Assembly: GCF_021917145.1 (NCBI RefSeq) | Contig: NC_061074.1 | Coordinates: 8,247,485-8,311,484 of the forward strand | DNA length: 64,000 nucleotides | Origin: Hypomesus transpacificus | Lineage: Eukaryota > Chordata > Actinopteri > Osmeriformes > Osmeridae | Direction: 5' to 3' | In this document: positions 10,293 through 51,585 of the stretch, piece by piece | How positions within the stretch are numbered: position 1 is the stretch's first letter | How the letters are laid out: each line of letters opens with the position of its first letter | Notes under the pieces: generated by a model | The model's input: the letters and a program-made list of their open reading frames with translations, nothing else | Told to the model about the DNA's origin: nothing | Database searches by the model: none | Made by a program: the position numbers and the translations under genes

Positions 10293-13200
10293 TCAGTGAC
10301 TGTCCATCTTTCTCTCTGCGATCTGAAGCAACATTTCAGAGTACTTTTCCAACAGAGCCACAGTCCTGTCGTCTCTCAGCTGGCGGCCAGGGGAGTCCTC
10401 CACAGGGGCGGGGCCAGGACGCCTGTCCTCCACAGGGGCGGGGCCAGGACGCCTGTCCTCCACAGGGGCGGGGCCAGGACGCCTGTCCTCCACAGGGGCG
10501 GGGCCAGGACGCCTGTCCTCCACAGGGGCGGGGCCAGGATGCCTGACCTCCACAGGGGCGGGGCCAGGATGCCTGTCCTCCACGGGGGAGGGGCCAGGAC
10601 GCCTGTCCTCCAAATACAGGGAGTCCAGCTCGCTCTGGACCGATGTAAAGGCCCCCTTCAGGAAGCCCAGCATCTGCGCCTGCTGATCTAGACCGTCTGA
10701 CATGGAACACACCTGCAGGAACACAGGTTCAGACAGAAACCTCAGCACTGGTTGAGAAAACATGAAAACAAATTATACTCAAATATAAACAGATTTTGCA
10801 CTTTACTGATAGCATCGGCTTCACCTTATTATAAAAGTTGACTGTTCTTCTCATGGTGTTGCCCAGTTCTTCAACAATCTGGTTACACATCTGGACGTTC
10901 ACAGTTTCCTCCACAGAATCTGTGATGGGAAGAGCATAAGGCAAAGTGAGGTTGAAAGAAATGACCTAAAAATCATACATAACGTAAAACGTACAGGTGA
11001 CCTCACCTGAGCCTGAGTTGGAGGAGTTTGAACGCTCTTCTGAACTTTCTGACGGTGGCATGCTGTGCCCAGGTGGAGGGCTGGCTGAGGGATCAAAGGT
11101 GGGACTGGACTGCTGGGGTACACTGGACCGCAGCCCTTCCTCCTCCTGGCGCCTGGGGCCACACGGGGACTGAGACCTGGCTGGGCTCTCTGTCCGGGTG
11201 GTGGGGCCCAGGCTGCGTGCCTGATGCCCTCTCCTGGGCGTCAGGGTCTGCTCGATGTTGCTGATGCGCTTCTTGGCCTCTTTGCCCAGAGAGCGCATCT
11301 CCGTGGGGGTCACCAGGGCCGGGCGCCGGGGCGAGTCCACAGTGCGCCGCCGTGTCTTGTAGGACAAGGGCGACATGCAGGACGGAGCCGGGGCCTCGGG
11401 CATGGCCAGGTCCAGGTGGAGGAAAGCTCTCGCACTGTGATTTCCAGGAGCAGGAGAGGGAAGATGAGGCTGGCTGGCAGGAGCAGAATACACCAGCGAG
11501 GAGGGCAAGGTTGTGGTGGTCGGGGCCACAGGAGGGGGTGCCGAGGAAGAAAGGTTCTCTTTCCACTCCTGCGCCGTCAAATCTGGGATGGATGAAGACT
11601 TCCCCTCCATGGGGTCACCAGGCTGCTCGTCTGTGGGGGAGATGTTCAGACCCTCGCCTGCCGTGTGGCCCTGGGAGATCTTGGCCCTGGAGCTGGCTGT
11701 GGTGCCCATGTAGCTCTGGCGGCAAGGCCGGGAGAGGAGGTCCTTATCCAGGGCAGCGAGGGAGCCTTTCTGGCCTGAACTACCAGGTGGGGCCAGGAGC
11801 TCTACCGGGGCAGTGTTCTGAGAGAAAGACTGTGATGCCAGAGTCTTGTTTGTAATATCTGAAAGGGAGACCATTTCAAAGCATGAGGAGGTGATGCATG
11901 TACAACCAAAACGCAAACCTGGGGCCCAAACTTTGATCAGCACCTGCTGTAAAACCGACACCATAGATGAGAAAGAAGCCAAAACATGAATCCAGTGTCG
12001 TTTTAGAAGATACGAGTTGAAAAGAAGAAAAGGCCTGTTTCATTTAGATAGAGTGAATTCCAAATCATATTCCCATGTGAATCCCCTGGCAAGGTAGATA
12101 GTTTGACCCACACACACACACCAGGGAGTCTCTCATTAATCACCATGTGGACCACGTGGCAGGGTAGATGGGTTCACACACACACACACACACACACACA
12201 CCTCCCAGGGAGTCTCTCCAGTGGATGACAGCTATGGTGTTGCGGCTGCGTAGGGGCCGAGGGCGAGGATGAGGGCAGCACTGGGCTTTGACGGAGCAGC
12301 CCCGTCTCTTTAGCGCCACAGGATGACACCTTAGCGCTCTGTCTGGATGAGCCAGCAGCAAAAGCCATATCAGGCCACTGTCACACATGCCACATCAGTC
12401 CAAAGCCACAGGCTCTCCTGTCACTACATGTCGCAGTGGATTAAGTGATACGGCCAGGGTTTGTTTTCCCCCCCACATGAGCATGGAGATGAGAGTGACC
12501 TCAGTTGTGTTGAATCCTTCAGCTGAAGCAGAGGATGCGTGAAGGTTAGCTGTCTGCAGATATGACTCATGTAGCCCTGTAAACTCACCACTGTCTGGGT
12601 TACCCGCTTCAGAAAGTTCCGTGGCACACGGCTCAGGACACAGCTTTGAGTCGACCTGAAAACACAAAACAAATCTGTCCAACTGATTTGACACAGAATA
12701 TGACTTCAAAAGCGGCTCTTTATTGGTTTTACAAGTGTGGGCATGTTGGTCATCTGGTGTGTTACTGTGTGTGTGTGGCTGGAAGGTCCCGGTACCTCGG
12801 GGGTGCTGGGGGCCTGGTCGCTGGCCTCCTCAGAGATCCTGGGGTGGAGTCGGGCATGACGTGGGGCAGGAAGGAGTCCTGGGCTGGAACAGTACAACAG
12901 AAAGTTAATTTGGAGCTAATGGAGCATGACTATAGGTCAGAAACATTAGGTCTTTTTAGGTACTATAAATGAAATAAAAAAATATAAAAATAAATATATA
13001 TAAATATATAAATGTTCTTAAGACAGGGAGAAAGTTAAGTGTGCACTGCAAAAAGTTTTAAAATGATTCATCCCACACAGGGGGCTCGATTCAGGGCTTC
13101 TTCCCCGCTGAGGGTCTAAGGCCAACAGCAGCCGTGAGACAGGAAGTGAGACAGGAAGTGCCCGGCACGTGCGCTGCACCGAGCTGGACGAAGGTGAGGA

Positions 13201-16200: not shown

Positions 16201-19200
16201 ACTCTTGTCAGCTCCACAGCTCACCATCCGCACCTCCGGGCTCACACCTGCAAACGCATCCACACCGCGGCGCTCAGCAGGGGGTCGTGACGGAACGTCA
16301 CAACACATTACCCTGGACACTTCTCAGAATACGATTCAGACGACCTCATGTGGCTCGGCACCTTTCAAGGACAACCACTGGGCAAGCGAGGGGGGGCGGG
16401 GGGGGGGACTACCGATCTCCACAGACCTGTGAACTTAATGGCGGTGATGGAGGCCGAGTGGTCGTAGACAGTCTGCTGTAGGGTGTAGTTCTTCTCCATG
16501 TTGAAGATGTGAATGAGGCGATCTCTGCTTGCGGACGCCAGCAGGCCGAGGCCTGGGAGAGGGGGGGGGGAAAAGCAGTCAGAACTTCCTTCAGGACTCT
16601 TCCTGGCCTACTGTTTCTACGGAAGCTGTTCCCCAAGGACCTCTCACCGGTGTGTGTCGGGGAGAACTCCAGGCACAGCACCTCGGAGTCGTGAGCCTCG
16701 ATCTTCTGGAGCTCGTCCATGAACTGCAGACCGAAGATCCTGTGGACGGAGGAGATCACCGTTTGAGACCGTCCGCCTTCTGCACGCGAGTGCCAGAGCT
16801 AGACCCTGAGTGGGGGGGGCCGCCTGAAATCCACGTGAAAGAGAATCACGCACGTTTACCCGTGTTCTGTCGGGGTCTTACCGGAGGTTGCCGCTGCGAT
16901 CTCCCACAGCGAGGTGTTGTCCATCAGGGCTGACGCTGAGCACACGGACACCAGCCTTGCCGTCCATCCCAGCGCCATCTCCTCGCCCGCCCTCCGCCCG
17001 CAGATGCTGGGTGTCCTCCCCGACGTAGACTATCCTCATCAGATCCTGCCGCAGCCAGCAAACGGGAGGGAGGAACCCCAGTGGGAACACACAGAAAAAC
17101 GACATGTAAAAACAGAGCCCCCCAGAGCACCGTGGTTGTGATCCAGGGTGAGAGGTGTCGTGGGGGGGCTGGCGGGGGGGGGGACGGGGGACGTACGTTG
17201 CTGTAGAAGTTGCGCAGGCAGCCGGGGCCCGGGGCGCTGGACTGAGCCTGACCCTGCAGGGGGTCGCCGTGCCACAGGCGGATGGTGTTGTCGGAGGAGC
17301 AGGTGAGGAAGGCCCCCGCAGGAAGACAGGCCAGCGATGGCTCTCCCATGTCAGGGTAGGTCTGACACAGAGAGATGACAAGACAAAACCAGGTTGCTTT
17401 TGTTATTGGGTGTCGTCGTTGACTACAGACCAGTGTCTGGACGTCTAGACTTTGTATGCGACAAGTAATAATATGAATCTTAGAACTGTGCTTTTCTGAC
17501 CCCTGAACCATATTTACATTTAGTCATTTAGTAGACGCTCTTATCCAGAGCGACTTACAGAAAGTACAGGGACATTCCCCCGAGGCAAGTGGGGTGAAGT
17601 GCCTTGCCCAAGAATCGAACTGGCAAACTTCTGATTAATATTCGTATGTCGTTTTGGACAAAAGCATATGCCAAGTAACTGTGAAAGCTGCCCAAAGGAA
17701 ATGTAGACGGCATCTACCTCCACACTCCAGACACAGCCGCTGTGGTAGAGGGCAGAGTAGACCTTCCCCACGTTCCTGACGTCACGCACGTCCCACACAT
17801 ACACACTGTGGTCATTGTACACACAGGTCAGGTGCCTTGTCACAGGGTCAAAGGTCAGTGCCAGGGAGTCTGGGTACTCTGCCTCTTGTTTGGCCGAGAA
17901 CAGGTGCCTGTGGAGGTAACCAGACAAGAGGATATGAAAGGACACGTTAAACCTTGGGATGTCTTGTGTTTTTTGGACAATAATCCCCTTTGTTTAAGAG
18001 TTTCTCGCCCCAGGCTTCGGAGCCTTCAGTTTCACATGACTATGACTCAGTAGACGCACGGCTGTGTGTGTGTGTGTGTGCATTTGTTCTGTCCCAGGAA
18101 GCTCTCATGGAGCAGATTTCTTACTCTGGCAGGATGCCCTGGGTGATATCCACCCCCAGGCAGTGAGGTCGGTGCAGGGTGGCGATGTAATGAAGGGTCT
18201 GGGGGCTAAAGACACGAACGGTGCCGTCAGCACAGCCACAGAAGATGTAGACCTCGCTCACAGACAGGCAGCGGGCTGAGGTCGTCTGTGAAGAGGTGGC
18301 AACAAACACCCAAGGATTGGATCGACAGGAACATCAGACCCAACTATTTGAAACTCGAGTCATTCAGGGAGAATTTTTTTCAAGCTGACATCTGACCTTG
18401 AGGTCGACCCAGGTGTCCAGCATCCTGTTGCTGTTGAACTGACACAGCAGCCCCGAGCTGGTGATGCAGTAGGTACTGCTAGCCATCTTTCCCCGCCCAC
18501 AAGCCAATCCACAGAACATGCTGTTCCGCTGTTCCCCTAGTAACCCCGACCGGCCAATTAAGGGCACCGTGCTGTTAACCTAGGCGGGGACATACCACAA
18601 CAAGTAGTCATCATCACAGTCATTACAGACGGGTGATAACACTACTGGCACAGGGCGTCCCCTGGGCATGTGTCCTGGTCCTCACCCGTCTCTCCTTGGA
18701 AGCATCCAGGTACCAGAACCTGATGTGACGGTTTCCCGCAGTGACAAAGTAGCTGTTGTCCTCAGAGAAGGACACTGACTGGACCTTGCTGGATACCTTG
18801 TTGGATGCGATCACAGTGCCTTTCTAAAGTCAAGACAAAAAGTAATAAATTAAAATCTGACCAAATGTATGTGCAATTAGACCATATAATCTCTGATCTG
18901 TTGAAAAAAATTTTTTGTCATGAGCTTTGACAATCCCTGTGCCCAGCCATATCACATTACACAAACATATGTAGTTCACTGTCTACGTCTGCCAAAGGCA
19001 CAAGCTACTGCGCATGTGCAGGCCCCTCTGTATGAACGACTCACCCTCCACTCCACACTGCCCATGTGCAGGCCCCTCTGTATGAACGACTCACCCTCCA
19101 CCCCTTACTGCCCATGTGCAGGCCCCTCTGTATGAACGACTCACCCTCCACTCCCTACTGCCCATGTGCAGGCCCCCTGTATGAACGACTCACCCTCCAC

Positions 19201-21346
19201 CCCTTACTGCCCATGTGCAGGCCCCTCTGTATGAACGACTCACCCTCCACCCCTTACTGCCCATGTGCAGGCCCCTCTGTATGAACGACTCACCCTCCAC
19301 CCCTTACTGCCCATGTGCAGGCCCCCTGTATGAACGACTCACCCTCCACTCCCTACTGCCCATGTGCAGGCCCCTCTGTATGAACGACTCACCCTCCACT
19401 ACCTACTGCCCATGTGCAGGCCCTCTATATGAACGACTCACTCACCCTCCACTCCCAGACACTGACGGTCATGTCATGCTGATAGCCCACAGACACGATG
19501 TAGCTGCTGTTGGTGGAGAAGGCCACACAAGCCACCCCATACTTGTGGCTCTGGACCTCTGCCACCTGGGTCCTGTCAGCCACGTCCCACACTCGCACAC
19601 AGGGCATGTGACCACTCTGCCCAGAGACAAGGATCGAGTTAGAAGCAGAGTGAATTGGCGGAGACAAGTGGGGTGAAACTGGAAGCCATGTCAATTCTTC
19701 TGACATGACGGGAGCTTGAGGGTGACAAACAGCTTTCGAAAGGCAAAGTTGATACCAGAATAATCTGTGCAAAGTTAAGAAATCGCAAAGTGAATTATTA
19801 CATACATCTAGAAATAGAATTGGTTAATGGTAAGTCAATTGACAGAAACGCTGAGGGGATTTCTCCTTTGTACTAAGATCCTAAATTACCTATTTGTTAT
19901 AAGGATTCATTTGTATCCTACAGTTGTAGGCTAGTGCCTATAACAGTGTACACAACAAATAGAGGCTATAATTGTTCAAGTAGTGCAAACTCAACCAGGC
20001 AGAGAAATAACATCACGTTAGTGATTCTTACTTTTAAAAACATTGAGGACCATTACCTAATTTCTAACAAGCACACCAGTTCTATTTACATAACATTTAA
20101 AATACAACCTAACAGCGAGACACACAACATGCATCATACAGCTAAATTGTCTTGAGGCGCCAACATTTAAATAGGTACAGCAAAGTGCACATCCACCAAA
20201 CAAATCCTTCTCTTTTTTTCTTCTTACATGAACATATCCAAGTACTTACCTCACCAGTGACCAAATATTTTCCATCTTGAGAGAATGCCAGGGCAGTGAA
20301 GGTTTTTCTGGGAAACACAAACACAGAACAGGCTTAATGAGAGTGCAGGTCAGTATTACACTGGAAGAAAATCGCATTTAGCAGTAGCTACTCCAATAAG
20401 ATTTATTCTGACTTCAAATAAAATAAAGTAATTTCCCTTTTATCATTTTGGTTGGCTGTTGCCATTAAATTTTAAGGTGTTGTTGGAGTGAGCAGATACA
20501 GAAATATTCATTATTTTGAAGCCTTTCAACTTGCACTAGCGTTCAACTAGTTTTGATGACTAGTTTTAAGTACTGGGATCAGGAGAGAGCATAAACGCAC
20601 ACCTTGATGTATTGAGGATGTGAAACTGTTTGTTTTTCTTTGGATGAAGTATCACAATAACACACCTGAAACAGAAGACAAGTGGATTAGTCAATTTAAC
20701 AAAAGCGTAAAGTAGTGTTCAAAACTAATTCTATCGTCAGCCCAGTCCACTTACCCTGCAGGGTAGGCAACTAATCCCGTGTTCGGGTCACAGGCCAGGC
20801 CACTACCGTTGGAGGTGGTGATTCCAAGCACTCTTTCAAGAACAACCTGTGAAAACATAGCAGTTAGCACTCCAATCACATACTCACCGAGACTTGAAGT
20901 GCAGTATGCCGTGTCGTATTTTAGCATTTAAATCAACTGCAATTCTGAGGCGAGATGTAACCTAACATGGCAATGCAGTCCAGAGGCAATACCAAGCCTT
21001 TAAAGAGGACTAGAAGCGAGCTAGCTCACAACATCAACTACCCAAAAACTTGATCAAAGGCCGTGACTCAACTGTACTGCTTGTATCTAACGTTAAATCT
21101 GAACTAGCTAGTACCAGGGTGTCACACAACAAGTGACTAGCTACTAAGCTAGAGCTAGCTAAATTGCCCTCCAAAAATGGGTATGATTGGTTAGTTACAT
21201 AGTATTACCCGATTGTGAGTAGTCCGTCTTTGGTTTTGTCGACTTCTTCGCCGCATATTTGTGGCAGCAGACGCATTGCTCATCACTTTCCTATTTCTCG
21301 ATGGAAATGAAGTTATATTGGCACCTCCGTATGATCCCTCAGCCAT
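10293..21346 (-). CDS. wdr62: WDR62, centrosomal WD40-repeat scaffold
   Basis: WDR62 is a spindle-pole/centrosome scaffold that also binds JNK-pathway kinases; loss causes human microcephaly. Exons (gene order): 21209-21346, 20755-20846, 20603-20665, 20250-20307, 19446-19616, 18686-18823, 18397-18579, 18125-18285, 17718-17907, 17197-17361, 16882-17045, 16648-16739, 16427-16552, 16177-16247, 15946-16067, 15764-15839, 15575-15686, 15405-15468, 15183-15308, 14943-15064, 14761-14825, 14379-14666, 14070-14227, 13864-13982, 13520-13651, 13210-13321, 12796-12883, 12589-12655, 12202-12342, 11007-11858, 10825-10919, 10293-10712. All phases agree, giving 1656 residues (human about 1520). The first about 770 residues are WD40 repeats ([44 protein letters not shown]). 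The rest is acidic and Ser/Pro-rich, ending in a helical segment ([18 protein letters not shown]). The paralogue MAPKBP1 is disfavoured by QFMDEL.KIEAHD, DRSGNLR and [13 protein letters not shown], which follow WDR62. A coding minisatellite expands the C-terminus. Confidence 0.95.
10395..10604 (-). repeat. 30-bp coding minisatellite in wdr62 last exon (7 units)
   Basis: Seven head-to-tail 30-bp units containing CCACAGGGGCGGGGCCAGGA, with a few substitutions in the last two. On the minus strand each unit encodes a decapeptide of the type [10 protein letters not shown], in frame with wdr62, between the SELDSLYL helix and the final RTVALLEKY helix. It is GC-rich and free of stops, so it also opens meaningless frames on both strands. 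Confidence 0.95.
12171..12201. repeat. (CA)n microsatellite abutting a wdr62 splice donor
   Basis: Pure CA tract. On the minus strand it is a (GT)n run whose first GT is the donor of wdr62 exon 12202-12342, so the exon ends directly in the repeat. The phase of the next exon (11007-11858) requires this donor. Confidence 0.8.
17512..17642 (-). mobile_element. tRNA-derived SINE, 5'-truncated antisense copy
   Basis: Tail (TTTACATTTAGTCATTTAGT) and body match the family at 6646. The tRNA-like head breaks off shortly after the B-box region (AATCGAACTGGCAAACTTCT). Lies in the wdr62 intron between exons 17718-17907 and 17197-17361. Confidence 0.8.
19013..19455 (-). repeat. 50-bp tandem array copying a wdr62 exon/intron junction
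   Basis: Nine units of 49-50 bp, each with CATGTGCAGGCCCC followed by CGACTCACCCTCCA. On the minus strand every unit carries GGAGGGTGAGTCG, the same as the true donor of wdr62 exon 19446-19616 (GGAGG then GTGAGTGAGTCG). The last unit is the genuine junction; the other eight lie downstream in the intron as decoys. The array makes long periodic open frames on the plus strand that are not genes. Confidence 0.92.
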
Positions 21347-29300: not shown

Positions 29301-32300
29301 ATTCTGAATGGAAAGTTTACTTTTAAAAAGTTGCCAAATGGTTCCATTGACAAGACCAAAGTGATCTGTGTGTTTTGTCGTTGTAAACTGAGCTATCATC
29401 GCAGCACGTCCAGTCTGAAATACCACTTGATGGCCAAGCACACAGATGATGCGAATTCTCCGCCCCCTCGTCAAAGCCAGGCGATTGCAATGTTGTTTTC
29501 AATAACAAAAAATATTTGCACGAAGCAATCCGAACCACTTTTCCATGTTGATAAGAGCATTACAATTTGAAAAAAGAATGGGACAAAAAGAAATCAAGGG
29601 ACATTTAGAATAGATAAAAATGTGCGATTAATTGTGATTAATCGCGAGTTAACTATGACATTAATGCGATTAATCGCGATTAAACATTTTAATCGTTTGA
29701 CTGCACTAATATATATATATAGTTATCTTCTCTGTTAATGCATTTAATAATACATGAACTAAAATGTTACAAAACACTCACTCATGTTTTCAATGTCTAG
29801 AGAGTCTACGACCGATCTTTTGATCTCATCGCTGGCGATGGCTCTCTCGAAGGCCTTCTGCTTCACAATCTTGTTGCACTCCTGGTACTTCATCTTTGCA
29901 TCCTTGTCATTGGGCCTCACCTTGACCACCTACCAGCAGGCCACAAGGAAACACATTTACATTTGGCCATTTAGCAGACGCTCTTATCCAGAGCAACTTA
30001 CAGTAAGTACAGGGACATTCTCCCCCGAGGCAAGTAGGGTGATGTGCCTTGCCCAAGGACACAACTTATTTTTTCACGGACAGGAATCGAACCAGCAACC
30101 TTCTGATTAATAGCCCAACTCCCTAACCTCTTAGCCATCTGACCCCCTGTACACATCCGTGGACATATGTTACCTCTAGCAAAAGTCATACGTGTGCACA
30201 CTGACATGGAAATATATTGAAGGCATGTCAGAACGGAAAAGAGAAATCTCTCACAACAGTATTCGAAATCTTCCCAAAAAAACTCAGGTCAGATTCCTGT
30301 AAATTCATACAGTGCCCTCCAAAAGTATTGGAACAGTGAGGCGAATTCCTTTATTTTTGCTGTAGACTGAAAACATTTGGGCTTGACATCAAATAATGAA
30401 CGTGAGACCAGAGATCAACGTTTCAGCTTTTATTTCCAGGTATTTACATCAGGATCTGATGCACAACTAAGAAAATATCACATTTTGTTTGAATCCACCC
30501 ATTTGTCATGTGATCAAAAGTATTGGAACAGATATACTTAAAACATATTTAAGTGAATAAGACTTAATATTTAGTTGCAAATCCTTTGCTTTCAATAACT
30601 GCAGCAAGTCTGTGACCCATTGACGTCACCAAACTTTTGCATTCTTCCTTTTTGATGCTTTCCCAGGCTTTCACTGCAGCCTCTTTCAGTTGTTGTTTGT
30701 TTTGTGGGGTTCCTCCCTTCAGTCTCCTCTTAAGCAGGTAAAATGCATGCTCTATAGGGTTTAAGTCTGGAGATTGACTTGGCCAGTCTAATACCTTTCA
30801 TTTCTTGCCCCTGATGAACTCCTTTGTTGTTTTGGCAGTGTGTTTTGGGTCGTTATCTTGCTGCATGATGAAGGCTCTGCCAATCAGTTTGGTTGCATCT
30901 TTCCTTAAATTGGCAGACAAAATGTTTCTGTAGACTTCCGAGTTCATTTTGCTGCTGCCATCATGTGTTACATCCTCAATGAAGATTAATGAGCCCGTCC
31001 CAGAAGAAGCCATGCAAGCCCAAGCCATGACATTACCTCCACCGTGTTTCACAGATGAGCTTGTGTGTTTGGGATCATGAGCAGTTCCTTTCTTTCTCCA
31101 AACTTTAGCCTTTCCATCACTTTGGTAAAAGTTAATCTTTGTCTCATCAGTCCATAAAACTTTGTCCCAGAATTTTTGAGGTTCATCTCTGTACTTTTTG
31201 GCAAATTCCAGCCTGGCCTTCCTATTCTTCTTGCTAATGAGTGGTTTGCATCTTCTGGTGTAGCCCTTGTACTTTTGTTCATGAAGTCTTCTGCGAACAG
31301 TAGATAGTGATACCTTCACTCCTGCCATCTGGAGGTTGTTGCTGATCTCACTAACAGTTGTTTTAGGGTCTTTCTTTACAGCTCTCACAATGTTTCTGTC
31401 ATCAACTGCTGATGTTTTCCTTGGTCTACCTGTTCGACGTCTGTTACTTAGTACACCAGTAGTTTTCTTCTTCTTCAGGACATTCCAAATGGTTGTACTG
31501 GCTATGGCCAATGTTTCTGCAATGGCTCTGATTGATTTTCCATCTTCTCTAAGACTCACAATTGCTTGTTTTTCACCCAAAGACAGCGCTCTGGTTTTCA
31601 TGTTGTTTTCACCTCTGAATACAGTCTGCATAGACAAAACCTATCTTACCCAATCTGAACCTGAGTGTAGACATTCAGTGGTGTTTATTGATTGAATAAT
31701 GTATGTAATAGGACACACCTGGGCAACAAAACACACCTGTCAGTCACATGTTCCAATACTTTTGCTCACGTGACAAATGGGTGGGTTCGAACAAAAAGGT
31801 GATATTTTCTAATTTGTGCATCAGATCCTGATGTAAATACCTGGAAATAAAAGCTGAAACGTTGATCTCTGGTTTCACATTCATCGTTTGATGTCAAGCC
31901 CAAATGTTTTCAGTCTACAGCAAAAATAAAGGAATTGGCCTCACTGTTCCAATACTTTTGGAGGGCACTGTATGTACAGTGAGTATTGTCTATGGAGTTC
32001 ATGAATAGCCATAACAGCTACCACCTTTACTGACAGTGAGGCTATCCAGCACTGATCCTTGTTGCCGCAGCTTTGTTGTTTATGCTTCATATGCCGTCAA
32101 AATAGCTTGGAAGACAATAGGCTGTAAATCAACAGCGGTATGCACCATGCAATATGCTTTCACATTGGGATTTAATTGGCATCTTCAGTGGATTAAGGAA
32201 TAATCCCTGTGGAACTCATGGAACCAATGCACTGAAGATAATATGGGGTGTCAAATTTACAACTCAAATATTTTCTACGGGATGTTAAATTGTACATTTG

Positions 32301-45994: not shown

Positions 45995-48900
45995 CTAGCT
46001 GCACTTGCAAGACCTCACAATCATGTTGGACAGCTGTTCCACCTGCGGTGTTCGAAAAAATAAATACGGTGTGATCAGTACCAAAGCATCAATGGCCAAA
46101 ATTGCGAAGAGTCACAAGCGCACTCAACATCTGTTGTAACACTTGGTCAGCACACAGAGCCAGCGGGTCAGGGTGTACCTTGTGCTGTCTCCCCACGTAG
46201 TAGAGAATTGGCAGTGGGTCCAGAACCTGAGGGACACAACAGGGCTGGGCAGATGCTCCAGGATTGTGGTGTTTATACAAGGCCAAGATCTTCAGGAGGA
46301 GGAGAAGAACACAGACGTGTCAGCACATCAGTCAGCAAAGCAGCCTGGCCACATCAGCAAGGCCCCTGCCAGGGTAATAGTAACATACAAGGGCTACATT
46401 GCAGAGGGTGACTATCATGCCTGTGTGTTAGAGAGAGAGGGAGAGGGGGAGAGAGAGGGAGAGGGGGAGAGAGAGGCATGTGTTTTGTTTGCTCACATTG
46501 CTGAGACGATGTGACTACGGTTTAACCTCTTCTACAGCTTATAGAGTGGAGAGGTCACCGGCTACGATATAAAGGGGCACAGTCTGACAATATCAACTTG
46601 GCAGATGTGGAGAGGAGAGGTGTTTTGTACCTGAGAATATTTGTTTTCAGCATTCCAGATGTAGGTGCATGACCCCATGCAGTAGTTGGCATGGTAACCC
46701 TTTGGTTTATGAATCCACTTCCAGCCCAGATCTTTCCGGAAGTCAATATACAGCTTCCTTACGCAACAGTTCTCTGTCCTTCTGGAACAAAAAGATAAAT
46801 GTTAAAATGTGCTTAAAGATGTAAAAAAAAAACGAATAAATGAATTTAACAGCACTAGGTAAAATAAAGGGGTAAAAGCTCATGTTTTAGAGGAGAGGTA
46901 GGATTGGTTGTTACTCTGTGCAGGTGTCTTCTGCTGTGGTGGCTCGTTTCTTGCGCGAGGTGAGATGACTGCTGCTGTTCAGTGGAATGGACATGGTCAG
47001 GATGTGTGGTTTTTGCATGCGTTTGGCAATGGGGGCCAGGTCTCCTCTGTCGTTCTCTGTCAGGCCAGAGATGATGAATTGGAAGTTGTCCACCGGCTTC
47101 CCACATTCGCAGTACAATTTCAGCAGTAAGCCCTCCTCCTCCGCTATTAAACACACACACGTACACGTGTCACACCACTACAGTTCTGTTCGGCCCAATA
47201 GCAGGGGTTAACCTTGTCGAGGAGCCAGGCGTTGGTACCACCCACTCACCAGAGCCCTGCAGCCAGTCCTTGAGGGTCTGTGTGACATCGAAGGACAGCC
47301 AGCGTTCCGCCGAGGAGCTGTAGACAAAGCGTGAGCCGATGTAGCGGGCGTCGGGTCCCAGGCCCTGGTACAGCTCCAGCCTCTGCTCTTTCTCGATGTT
47401 AGGCTTCCTGATGAACAGACGGAGCTCAGCGCTGGACAGCAGGTCGGAGTCGCCCACGTTCGCACGCATGTCGGTGATGTTGAACAGCAACTGGTGTTGC
47501 TGCTGCGTGCTTCCGCCTGGTGAGGGTGGGACGGTGACAGAGTTATTGACTCAGTTTCCATGAGGGAACTGGAGAGCGCAGGGGATTTATGGTGTGGAAA
47601 GCACCTGTAGACTTAGAAGCTGGTGTTTACATTGCACCATTAGACCAAAGCTATCAAACAACCGGGCATTTTACCTGTTTGCACACAACGCTGGCCTTGC
47701 CTGATCATGACTCTCAGCTGTGTGTCTGTGTTTTATTAGTGCTCTCATGCAACGTTTGTTTCACAGTTTGTCCGCGACAACACAGTGGAGTCGTTTACCC
47801 ACTAAAGAAACCGGGCCGCAAGCAAAGCCGACCCACGGATGGAACGTTCCGGCATGTACCTGGAGTTTCATCACCCAGAACCAAGTCGGACAGAAACAGA
47901 AACAGGCTGCGATAAGGAGAGAAGGGAGAGAGATAAGACATAAAGAGAGGAAGGGAGCGAGCGAGGCAGGAAGAGAGTAGTTACAGAGGCAGCAAAAGAG
48001 AGGGGAAGGTGAAAGAGTTCACATCGTAGTGAGAATATACAGTAAGGCTGTTTAACGCACCACCATGTGAAAACACGCACTGTAGACATGTGTGTTTGCG
48101 TGAGTGTGTGGGTGTGTGCATGTATGTTTGTGTGTGTGTGTGTGTGTGCGTGTGCATGGAGACCAAGGTCTGGCCCAGGCCCAAACACTCTGCCCCAGCT
48201 TGTCAGGATGAATGATCTAGCGCTCAGCTCCACCACAGCTTCAGTTCTCCCACTCTGGCAACAGAGACTTGGCTCTTCGACAGAACCAGCTGGTACCTGG
48301 CTGGACCATGCCGTTTCAGGGCTCAGGGCAGAACTATGTTTGATAGAATCATATTCATCATTGTAAACGTAGGCAGAGTTCTCATACCATATGATATAAA
48401 CGTGTCAAATAACTTCAAACTTAAAGAAGAAAGAAGGCATTTGTATGGGGCCGAAGCAAACCAGGAGAGCTTTACTCCCTTTGGCAGGCTATGCAAAGCA
48501 AAGGGAAGACAGATAATTGCACACCACAGAAGAAGAAGACAAGCAGAGACACACCATGTAATACACCTGCAAGGAAGCCATTGCCTCTGGGTGGAGTGGA
48601 TAAACCGTTGTTGAACAAGATGAGGGTGGGCCCGTGTTTAAGAAACAGGAAATTACTAAGCCATTTCCCCTATCTGAAGACCTTATCAGTTGTGACATTT
48701 ATAATAACATTATATTACTCACATCTAGCACCTTAACACATTGTAAGAGATCTACCTCTGAGCTTCAGGGATGTGAAACAGTATAAAAAATGTTGGCAGA
48801 TGTGACGTATAGGGGAGCATCCCATAACTCTGCATGCCATGCTAACCTGGCGGTAAGGAGCATGGAGTCCTAGCCTGGCGTGTTGCCTGGGTGAGGAGCA

Positions 48901-51585
48901 TGGAGTCCTAGCCTGGCGTGTTGCCTGGGTGAGGAGTATGGAGTCCTAGCCTGGCGTGTTGCCTGGGTGAGGAGTATGGAGTCCTAGCCTGGCGTGTTGC
49001 CTAGGTGAGGAGTATGGAGTCCTAGCCTGGCGTGTTGCCTGGGTGAGGAGTATGGAGTCCTAGCCTGGCGTGTTGCCTGGGTGAGGAGTATGGAGTCCTA
49101 GCCTGGCGTGTTGCCTGGGTGAGGAGTATGGAGTCCTAGCCTGGCGTGTTGCCTGGGTGAGGAGTATGGAGTCCTAGCCTGGCGTGTTGCCTAGGTGAGG
49201 AGTATGGAGTCCTAGTTCTGTGTGCAAGCCTGGGTGTATGAGAGGATTTGTGTGTTCAATGGAAGCCTCTCCCCAGTTAAGCCAGGGACAGCTGTTGTGA
49301 CAGGTAGAGAGACAGCTCTGTAATTACCTCTGGGAGGAACCAGGATTCCTGCAACAGGCTAAATACTTGCGTCCTCAGTAGGCTTAGGGGCCACCCTCCA
49401 ACAGCCCCCTCAGCTCCACTGTTCCCTATGCCATCCTCCATCTCTCCCAGAAATAACCTCCCCCCCCTCTCTCCCACTGCACTTTTGCATCAACTTTGCA
49501 ACCCGGTAAAGGAAGTCTTGGGATCTTTAATCTCCAAATAACCCCTGGCATTGCCACTAGCATGGGCTATTTACCCCTAAACCCTGGTTTGGGCACGTAG
49601 CTCCACTCTCACAGTGCTGTCTGGCCTCTTTAATAACTCTCCCGTGTCCTAGCAACATTTTATATGTATGTGAATAGTGAATGCACATGTCTTTCTTTGA
49701 ATAGTGCTATTACATAGCCTGTAGGCTAGGAGGGAGATGGCATCATTTCAAATTACAGTGGGAACCGAAAGGCACCAAGGCCCCTCAGTGTTATGCACAC
49801 AAATATGCCTCCCTGAAGGCACCGAAAATGTTCAGAAAACACGTGGTATTCATCGAATGAAAGATCCGCGTGTTGAAATGGTTGAAGGGCATGTTTGTTA
49901 AAAAAAATTGTGCCATCATGTCATTAAATCCTTTGTAACTTTACTTGTGATTTATTTTGTAGGAGATGACTCTTAGCAAGGTACAACATACTGATTAGCT
50001 AAGGCAGTTATTACCCTTTTCTCTCATTCCTTGCCTAAAACACACACATTTCCGTATGTATACATCCACACACAAACACATACGCACACACACATAATGA
50101 ATTAGGCATCCTCTCCAAGTTATGTGGAGGACAAAGGTGCTGTCGACGGGCATAGCTGAGGGATAAATAAATGAAGGGATGTTCTGTGCCTTTGCCCGTC
50201 CACAGAGGTAGGAAACCTCAGCAGCTTCCCCCCCCCTGGGCATCATGTCCACCGGACCTGAGTCACACACAGACCCGGGTGTATCAGCCTTCCTTCCTGC
50301 CAAGCTGCCCAGTCACAAACACACTGATAATAAATCCTGGGAGAGGGGCAGCAGCAAGGAGGAGGAAAGGGAGTACGGGGGGTGGGGGGGGGGCGGTTGG
50401 GTGGACGAAAGAGAGAAGGGAGGGGGTTTGTATGGTGGTGGGGAGAAAGCGTGAGAGGGGGAAGAGAGATAAGGAAGGGGGGGGGGGGGGGGGGGGGGGG
50501 TAGGGTGGGGGGGTGACAGAGTAGGGAGAACCCAGTGCTCATGTTACAGGAAACCCCCAGAAGATATCCCAAGTGGGGAGAGGGGATAGAAAGAGAAAGA
50601 GAGAATTACATGTCCTCTCTCTCACTGAATTCGAACCATACCCCCCCCCCCGTTTGTTGTCTGTTCTTTTGACATTCGTCTTAGCAGAACTAAATCATGG
50701 CTTTGTTCTTCTTTGGTCTTAGACATGGTCTTAGACATCATTGCACATTTATGCTGTTTTTTTTTTCTTCCTGTTCGAAAGGGCGGATTGAAAGGAGGAC
50801 GGTTGCCCGGAGCGTGATTGGGGGTGCAAGAACGGAAAGTAGCAGATGACTTTGCTTACACACACATGAAGCCAACAAAACAAACAATACGACTGTAAAA
50901 ATGCCAAGAATACCAAGAGAACAACATCATAACAGATGGAATACCCGGTCTTGTAAACGTATTTCTCGCCTGATCTCTAAACCTTTCAAACTGCCTAAAG
51001 ATGTCTGAGAGGGAGCAGAAGGGGGTACACATGTTAAGGGAATTTATGGGTATTTAAGTTCCAAAAGGCAATCAATCACTTTACCGGTGAAGTCTGCTAC
51101 GCATTACATATTAGGTTTCTACATTTTGTTCAGACAGGGATTCAACCATGACCAGCCTCCTTCTCAAAGACCCAGTGTGTGTCTGTGTGTGTGTGTTCGC
51201 GCTCACGTGTCTGTACGTATAATGAAGTTAGTGTGTATAAACAGTCTCTCCACTCGCCTGTTTTCATGAAGAACTTGTGAGGTTGCTTGGCGAAGTACTC
51301 TTCCTCCTCCAGCTGGGGCGAGAAGGTTTGGGCCTGGTGCTCCTTGATCATGTCCTCCGTGCTGTTGTAAAGGGAGACCAGCGAGGCTGGGATCTCCTCC
51401 CCCTCCGCCTCCTTATCCACCTCGGGCTCCTTGGGCAGCCGCAGCTTGCTGAGGATCTGGCCCCTGATGGCCTCGATCCGCTTCTTCTTCACCAGCTCCA
51501 GGTCCAGGGTCTTACAGGTGGACATGCTGCCAACGCTGCCTACTACCGAACACAGCGCCATCAACGCTAAGCTTGCCAGCCTCAT
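45995..51585 (-). CDS. tgfb1a: TGF-beta-1 precursor (tgfb1a-like)
   Basis: Secreted cytokine made as a latent precursor. Exons: 51258-51585, 47250-47516, 46915-47143, 46631-46781, 46179-46289, 45995-46042, giving 377 residues. A signal peptide ([14 protein letters not shown]) is followed by the latency peptide start [20 protein letters not shown]. An RGD integrin site lies at 231-233, the furin site RKKR at 262-265, and the mature chain is 112 residues with nine cysteines in the family pattern ([18 protein letters not shown] to SCKCS). Intron 1 appears to use a GC donor: only ACAG followed by GCGAGT joins exon 1 to exon 2 in phase. Six exons are seen instead of the seven in mammals. An upstream Met (51609) is open but the start at 51585 matches the fish family. 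A TATA-like box and a (GA)n tract lie upstream. Suffix a is by similarity to zebrafish tgfb1a. Confidence 0.94.
48863..49230. repeat. 38-bp minisatellite in tgfb1 intron 1 (about 9.5 units)
   Basis: Units begin TGGAGTCCTAGCCTGGCGTG and continue TTGCCTGGGTGAGGAGTA, with single-base variants (CATGG, CTAGG). Period is exactly 38 bp at 48863, 48901, 48939 and onward to 49205. Confidence 0.93.
50477..50517. repeat. poly-G tract
   Basis: G-run with few interruptions in tgfb1 intron 1, within a 200-base G-rich stretch. Could form G-quadruplex on the plus strand; length is assembly-sensitive. Confidence 0.8.

Follow-up and report, generated by a model that had tools for sequence, protein, structure and literature searches.

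Minisatellites that span an exon–intron junction, and so repeat its 5′ splice site (donor), have been described in the human genes ABCA7, CBS and IFI6. Here we describe an array of this kind in a wdr62-like gene of the fish Hypomesus transpacificus, in which one true donor is followed by eight near-identical copies. The array lies in a stretch of 64,000 nucleotides (nt) analysed as a whole, hereafter the window (C15:8247485-8311484, contig NC_061074.1, in a 437-Mb assembly), which is free of N.

The ABCA7 array is a variable number tandem repeat (VNTR) in intron 18, with a 25-bp unit that begins at the exon 18 donor and is present in about 12 to 427 copies (PMC5954066). Retention of one unit amounts to 2 ± 1% of transcripts, is independent of array length and is subject to nonsense-mediated decay (NMD), and longer arrays are accompanied by more skipping of exon 19 and by lower expression (PMC5954066). 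At both ABCA7 and wdr62, the repeat sets in at the donor GT of the preceding exon, each unit carries a donor, and retention of a unit leads, or at wdr62 would lead, to a premature stop. The two differ in that ABCA7 has a 25-bp unit whose high variability and splicing effects have been measured, whereas the wdr62 array has units of 49–53 bp and nine donors.

The VNTR of human CBS, c.1444_1467+7(16_21), has a 31-bp unit in 16–21 copies (PMC2630376). Its name implies that the unit comprises 24 coding and 7 intronic nt, so the start of the donor should recur in each copy. Like the wdr62 unit, it spans the exon–intron junction, but it is shorter, is present in 16–21 copies and is known to be polymorphic in humans. 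The CBS repeat has a consequence for splicing, and it was reportedly associated with lower CBS activity by Lievers in 2001. In human IFI6 (6-16, G1P3), a minisatellite provides multiple donors, downstream units are used and three mRNA species result (PMC4526556). A minisatellite thus supplies several donors in a row at IFI6 as at wdr62, with the difference that IFI6 yields three mRNA species and the wdr62 decoys hit a stop. The IFI6 minisatellite is said to be the subject of a 1995 study by Turri. Judging by titles and the starts of abstracts, we recognised no general account of splice-junction minisatellites in the literature, although one may still exist.

A donor array beside a wdr62-like exon

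By its sequence, the wdr62 array is a further case of the ABCA7, CBS and IFI6 kind: its tandem units are near-identical and longer than 10 bp, it begins at the authentic donor of a coding exon, and its repeated donors are of equal strength. The preliminary description of this DNA had proposed one true donor and eight copies in a row beside a wdr62 exon, and nine identical minus-strand 9-mers were indeed found there. The features concerned are as follows (a slash marks the exon–intron boundary).

19446..19616, minus strand: wdr62-like WD40 exon, 171 nt, phase 0, in frame at both ends
18824..19445, minus strand: host intron, 622 nt, ends TTTTTGTCTTGACTTTAG
18686..18823, minus strand: next wdr62-like exon, 138 nt (46 codons)
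19006..19456, minus strand: minisatellite of 49–53-nt units, including the last 11 nt of the exon (19446–19456)
19440..19448, minus strand: true donor AGG/GTGAGT, first intron base 19445, then GAGT, giving a second GT 4 nt downstream
19436..19444, minus strand: delta-4 tandem donor TGA/GTGAGT, first intron base 19441, score 5.34 versus 10.18, use of which shifts the frame
19387..19395, minus strand: decoy donor 1, first intron base 19392
19337..19345, minus strand: decoy donor 2, first intron base 19342
19288..19296, minus strand: decoy donor 3, first intron base 19293
19238..19246, minus strand: decoy donor 4, first intron base 19243
19188..19196, minus strand: decoy donor 5, first intron base 19193
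19139..19147, minus strand: decoy donor 6, first intron base 19144
19089..19097, minus strand: decoy donor 7, first intron base 19094
19039..19047, minus strand: decoy donor 8, first intron base 19044
19425..19427, minus strand: in-frame TAG reached through any of the eight decoys

Exon 19446–19616 was identified by tblastn with human proteins, by WD40 relatives in the PDB and by translation, and the array by Tandem Repeats Finder (TRF) and a listing of its units. TRF placed the repeat at 19006–19441 (8.8 copies, 95% matches, score 767). The array proposed earlier is therefore present, but the span first assigned to it, 19013–19455, was slightly too narrow: with the exonic stub it covers 19006–19456. 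It takes up about 70% of the 622-nt host intron.

Within the window, GGAGGGTGAGT has nine copies on the minus strand and none on the plus strand. All of them lie inside the array, at successive spacings of 53, 50, 49, 50, 50, 49, 50 and 50 nt. At the true junction, the exon end ...TCTGGGAGTGGAGG is followed by GTGAGTGAGTCG, giving GGAGG/GTGAGTGAGTCG with an extra GTGA relative to the eight decoy junctions, which read GGAGG/GTGAGTCG. Because of this extra GTGA, the string common to all nine junctions is an 11-mer. A motif repeated in every unit thus holds for that 11-mer (9/9 junctions), whereas the 13-mer originally quoted for it, GGAGGGTGAGTCG, is found in the eight decoys only. Allowing at most one mismatch, the 13-mer had 8 matches against 0.05 expected, and at least eight were reached in 0/100 shuffles. 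Its exact form occurs at 21 places in the whole genome, eight in the array and 13 elsewhere, and the reversed string at 39, indicating that the array is special and the 13-mer itself is not.

Units u2–u8 share a mean identity of 96%, which makes copy-number polymorphism at the array plausible. Their four variable columns appear in mixed combinations among the units, as expected from slippage or exchange. A ninth unit, after decoy 8, decays from about 40 nt onwards, with no further donor at its end. The array contains no G-quadruplex motif with loops of 1–7 and six with loops of up to 12.

All nine donors present the same 9-mer, AGGGTGAGT, and each scores 10.18 with a frequency table; sharing one 9-mer, they would score equally under any 9-mer model. 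The remaining GTs of the intron score at most 5.41. On the minus strand between 10 and 21 kb there are 17 GT sites that score at least 10.18. Nine are those of the array, and of the remaining eight, several lie only a few bases from an end of a tblastn match. The equal scores and the position of these other top-scoring sites indicate that the decoys resemble real donors. The predicted U1 duplex is −10.9 kcal/mol at the true donor versus −10.1 kcal/mol at the decoys, as the extra GTGA gives one more pair, so that the sequence advantage of the true donor is slight. Its second GT 4 nt downstream (GTGAGTGAGT) recalls the delta-4 tandem donors, which shift the reading frame (PMC2423196). This GT is present at the true donor only and is a side feature of the array.

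Choice among the nine donors

Use of a decoy would extend the exon by 53 to 401 nt and leave an intron of 569 to 221 nt. The preliminary description had expected a TAG within about eight codons, and for all eight decoys the stop is codon seven beyond the exon, preceded by six sense codons. Since every decoy runs into this same early TAG, decoy-derived mRNAs should be non-productive.

We consider it probable that the array is a tolerated, junction-seeded minisatellite, at which the first donor wins and the decoys leak at a low level, and not a controller of gene dose. In the transcript, the nine sites would be about equal for U1 pairing, and the sole productive site would be the first, intron-distal donor. 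For all steps after U1 pairing, we infer that most transcripts would use this donor, given the preference of exon definition and co-transcriptional order for a donor that bounds an exon and the additional U1 pair provided by its flank; that low-level leakage through the decoys would lead to the TAG six codons beyond the exon; and that NMD should remove the resulting transcripts. The low, length-independent unit retention at ABCA7 likewise speaks for low, length-independent use of the decoys. The account is also supported by arrays of like architecture at a man1a1-like and a prpf39-like exon of this genome, described below.

Several observations weigh against this account. The predicted mean unpaired value is 0.40 at the true donor versus 0.50–0.57 at the eight decoys; the decoys being predicted to be slightly more open, the idea that RNA structure silences them finds no support. 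The eight other sites of the gene taken as real donors have a predicted openness of 0.21–0.46, and openness therefore does not mark out used donors. SRSF1 reportedly steers splicing towards intron-proximal donors (PMC5585400), a preference that would benefit the decoys. As for the seeding of the array from the exon, capture of more than 11 exon nt is not significant: when the 25 nt preceding each donor were aligned, the last decoy (19044) was found to share CAGTGT with the exon, but 129/2000 shuffles scored as high, and we do not claim exon homology beyond the 11 nt.

Among the alternatives, an effect of the kind seen in ABCA7 is unlikely. Array length or motifs would here act on skipping of the next exon and not through decoy use, giving a protein that lacks part of the WD40 propeller. 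As in ABCA7, the array directly follows an exon and includes its donor. Because the lengths of this exon (171 nt) and of the one after it (138 nt) are divisible by three, loss of either would leave the frame intact; in ABCA7, longer arrays went with more skipping of exon 19, which encodes 44 residues (PMC5954066). However, at about 440 nt the wdr62 array is near the low end of the 298–10678 bp spanned by ABCA7 alleles (PMC5954066).

We regard as quite unlikely the proposal that a regulated, copy-number-dependent fraction of transcripts is spliced at decoys and sent to NMD, tuning the level of wdr62. In its favour, true donor and decoys share one 9-mer, every decoy leads to an early stop, the decoys are predicted to be slightly more open, the uniformity of the units would allow polymorphism, and CBS offers the precedent of a junction-spanning repeat with 16–21 copies (PMC2630376). 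On the other hand, unit retention in ABCA7 is unchanged by array length (PMC5954066), and the decoys show no sign of selection. None of the four variable columns of u2–u8 falls in the 11-column donor core, for which the chance probability is 0.36; with only four columns this is a weak test of selective retention, and selection maintaining the decoy donors is unsupported by it. A dose-tuning function is possible, on grounds of plausibility, and the idea resembles that raised for CBS and ABCA7 and is not new in kind.

Two further readings are very improbable. The decoys might form a landing strip for U1 that aids expression, by suppressing premature polyadenylation or by intron-mediated enhancement; nine strong U1 sites do fall in a span of some 400 nt close to the gene's 5′ part, but the sense strand of this intron contains no AATAAA or ATTAAA. 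That the repeat is an assembly artefact (collapsed, inflated or false) would fit the general proneness of tandem repeats to assembly error, but the units differ by distinct variants and the N-free window is located more than 8 Mb from the start of contig C15; the copy number may nevertheless be off.

Origin of the array and its host gene

A search of the organism's own genome with a 210-base piece of the array, in a mode that skips simple repeats and very common words, matched only this locus, which makes the array unlike a dispersed element. Together with the last 11 exon nt held in the unit, the single locus points to duplication of the exon–intron junction as the most likely origin. The 11 exonic nt encode the end of WEWR, at a position conserved in human WDR62 and MAPKBP1, and because the encoded segment is conserved, the copy in the exon is the likelier source of the unit. 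In our favoured account of a junction-seeded, tolerated repeat, the segment duplicated in tandem at the wdr62-like junction would have comprised the donor, some 39 nt of intron and no fewer than the final 11 nt of the exon, and would then have been expanded and homogenised through slippage or unequal exchange. The unit, its junction content and its single locus are observed, and from them we infer the direction and mechanism of duplication. Introns have been gained by tandem duplication of AGGT segments, some as several copies of an exonic segment (PMC4974935). There, too, a sequence holding splice signals is duplicated in tandem; AGGT duplication creates a new intron, whereas the wdr62 array multiplies the donor of an existing one.

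The tblastn queries were human WDR62 and a fragment of its paralogue MAPKBP1 that covers three exons, and exon 19446–19616 and its donor at 19445 agree with both. Minus-strand matches to WDR62 run mostly in order from 20846 to 10296, with a few stray ones; they are strong in the WD40 part and weak in the C-terminal part (E up to 0.17). The three exons under the MAPKBP1 fragment are 73, 74 and 69% identical to MAPKBP1 versus 55, 64 and 46% to WDR62, two of the three WDR62 alignments being longer and extending into intron; the remaining exons match WDR62, the only protein with which they were compared. The gene may thus be either of the two paralogues. A THAP-like open reading frame (ORF) adjoins the gene in the window, an arrangement in keeping with that of human WDR62 and THAP8.

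The same gene holds a second minisatellite at 10395–10612 on the minus strand (30 bp, 7.3 copies), an in-frame 10-residue repeat near the C-terminus; it is probably a coding repeat and possibly variable in length. Elsewhere in the window, 30798–31640 on the minus strand is an ORF for a putative Tc1/mariner-like transposase.

Splice-site arrays elsewhere in the genome

A genome scan for AGGTRAGT occurring three times at spacings of 20–50 nt returned 661 places, compared with 463 for the pattern read backwards; these are places and not arrays, one array giving many places. The wdr62 array, with its AGGGTGAGT, is outside this pattern. The first 100 of the 661 places were grouped by eye into 20 arrays on contigs C1–C7. 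An exon end confirmed by homology was present in 2/20 (L033 and L016); in another two (L046 and L054), without homology, the unit repeats the end of a stretch that is open or preceded by an acceptor; and in 14/20 no exon was identified. From these counts we claim no excess at exon edges. Ten of 28 upstream frames were searched against Pfam, with one match, and three loci against the PDB.

L033 (G000:C2, ~170.8–171.3 kb) starts at the end of a man1a1-like exon (Pfam PF01532, 9.7e-19), which aligns with PDB 1nxc through its last residue (1e-29). It has 20 donors, spaced by 26 nt in 18/19 cases, with a unit of 20 exon nt plus GTGAGT. The first decoy shifts the frame, and the second and third lead to a stop after nine codons. 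On its upstream side, the same exon is preceded by acceptor-like units of about 30 nt that reach the true acceptor, so that the exon is flanked on both sides. L016 (G000:C1:5978723) starts at the end of a prpf39-like exon, aligned to residue 89 of 90 with PDB 6g70 (2.4e-8), and has three donors, the decoy path reaching a stop after one codon. PRPF39 itself belongs to the splicing factors that associate with U1. In the three arrays supported by homology (wdr62, man1a1-like and prpf39-like), only the first, intron-distal donor was found to keep the frame, as far as these were read.

L046 (G000:C3:1550843-1551282) has nine donors and a 48-nt unit, and its frame stays open as a 16-residue repeat; use of its downstream donors could produce isoforms of different length, as at IFI6. 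L054 has three donors and a 48-nt unit. Neither gave a family or solid PDB match where tried, the best PDB value for L046 being E = 0.082. In L043, three donors follow an exon-like frame, and the unit holds no exon sequence (the shared end is 2 nt). An acceptor counterpart of the wdr62 donor array was seen at L048 (G000:C4, ~9505.7 kb, minus strand), where three acceptors in 45-nt units end with the last at the start of an exon that looks, by eye, coiled-coil-like and that lies, again by eye, on the strand opposite to the donor pattern.

Within the window, a 38-bp minisatellite at 48852–49215 (9.6 copies, 98% matches) lies between minus-strand, putatively TGF-beta-like ORFs. It was rejected as a donor array of that gene, its GGTGAG being on the plus strand and the flanking ORFs on the minus strand.

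With donor and acceptor arrays placed exactly on exon edges, we suggest tentatively, at less than even confidence, that splice junctions are recurrent seeds of minisatellites in this genome. If so, this would imply a bias, either in the origin of repeats at exon–intron junctions or in their tolerance, and the arrays would be natural experiments on how one of 3 to 20 identical 5′ splice sites is chosen. Such choice is commonly investigated in minigenes with two sites. The nine near-equal donors of wdr62 and the twenty of the man1a1-like gene, each with one frame-keeping first choice, offer a natural test of donor choice, and junction reads at these two arrays would directly give the position rule. 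Should leakage prove high, mutation of junction repeats would be an easy way for gene dose to change, as has been suspected at ABCA7 and CBS.

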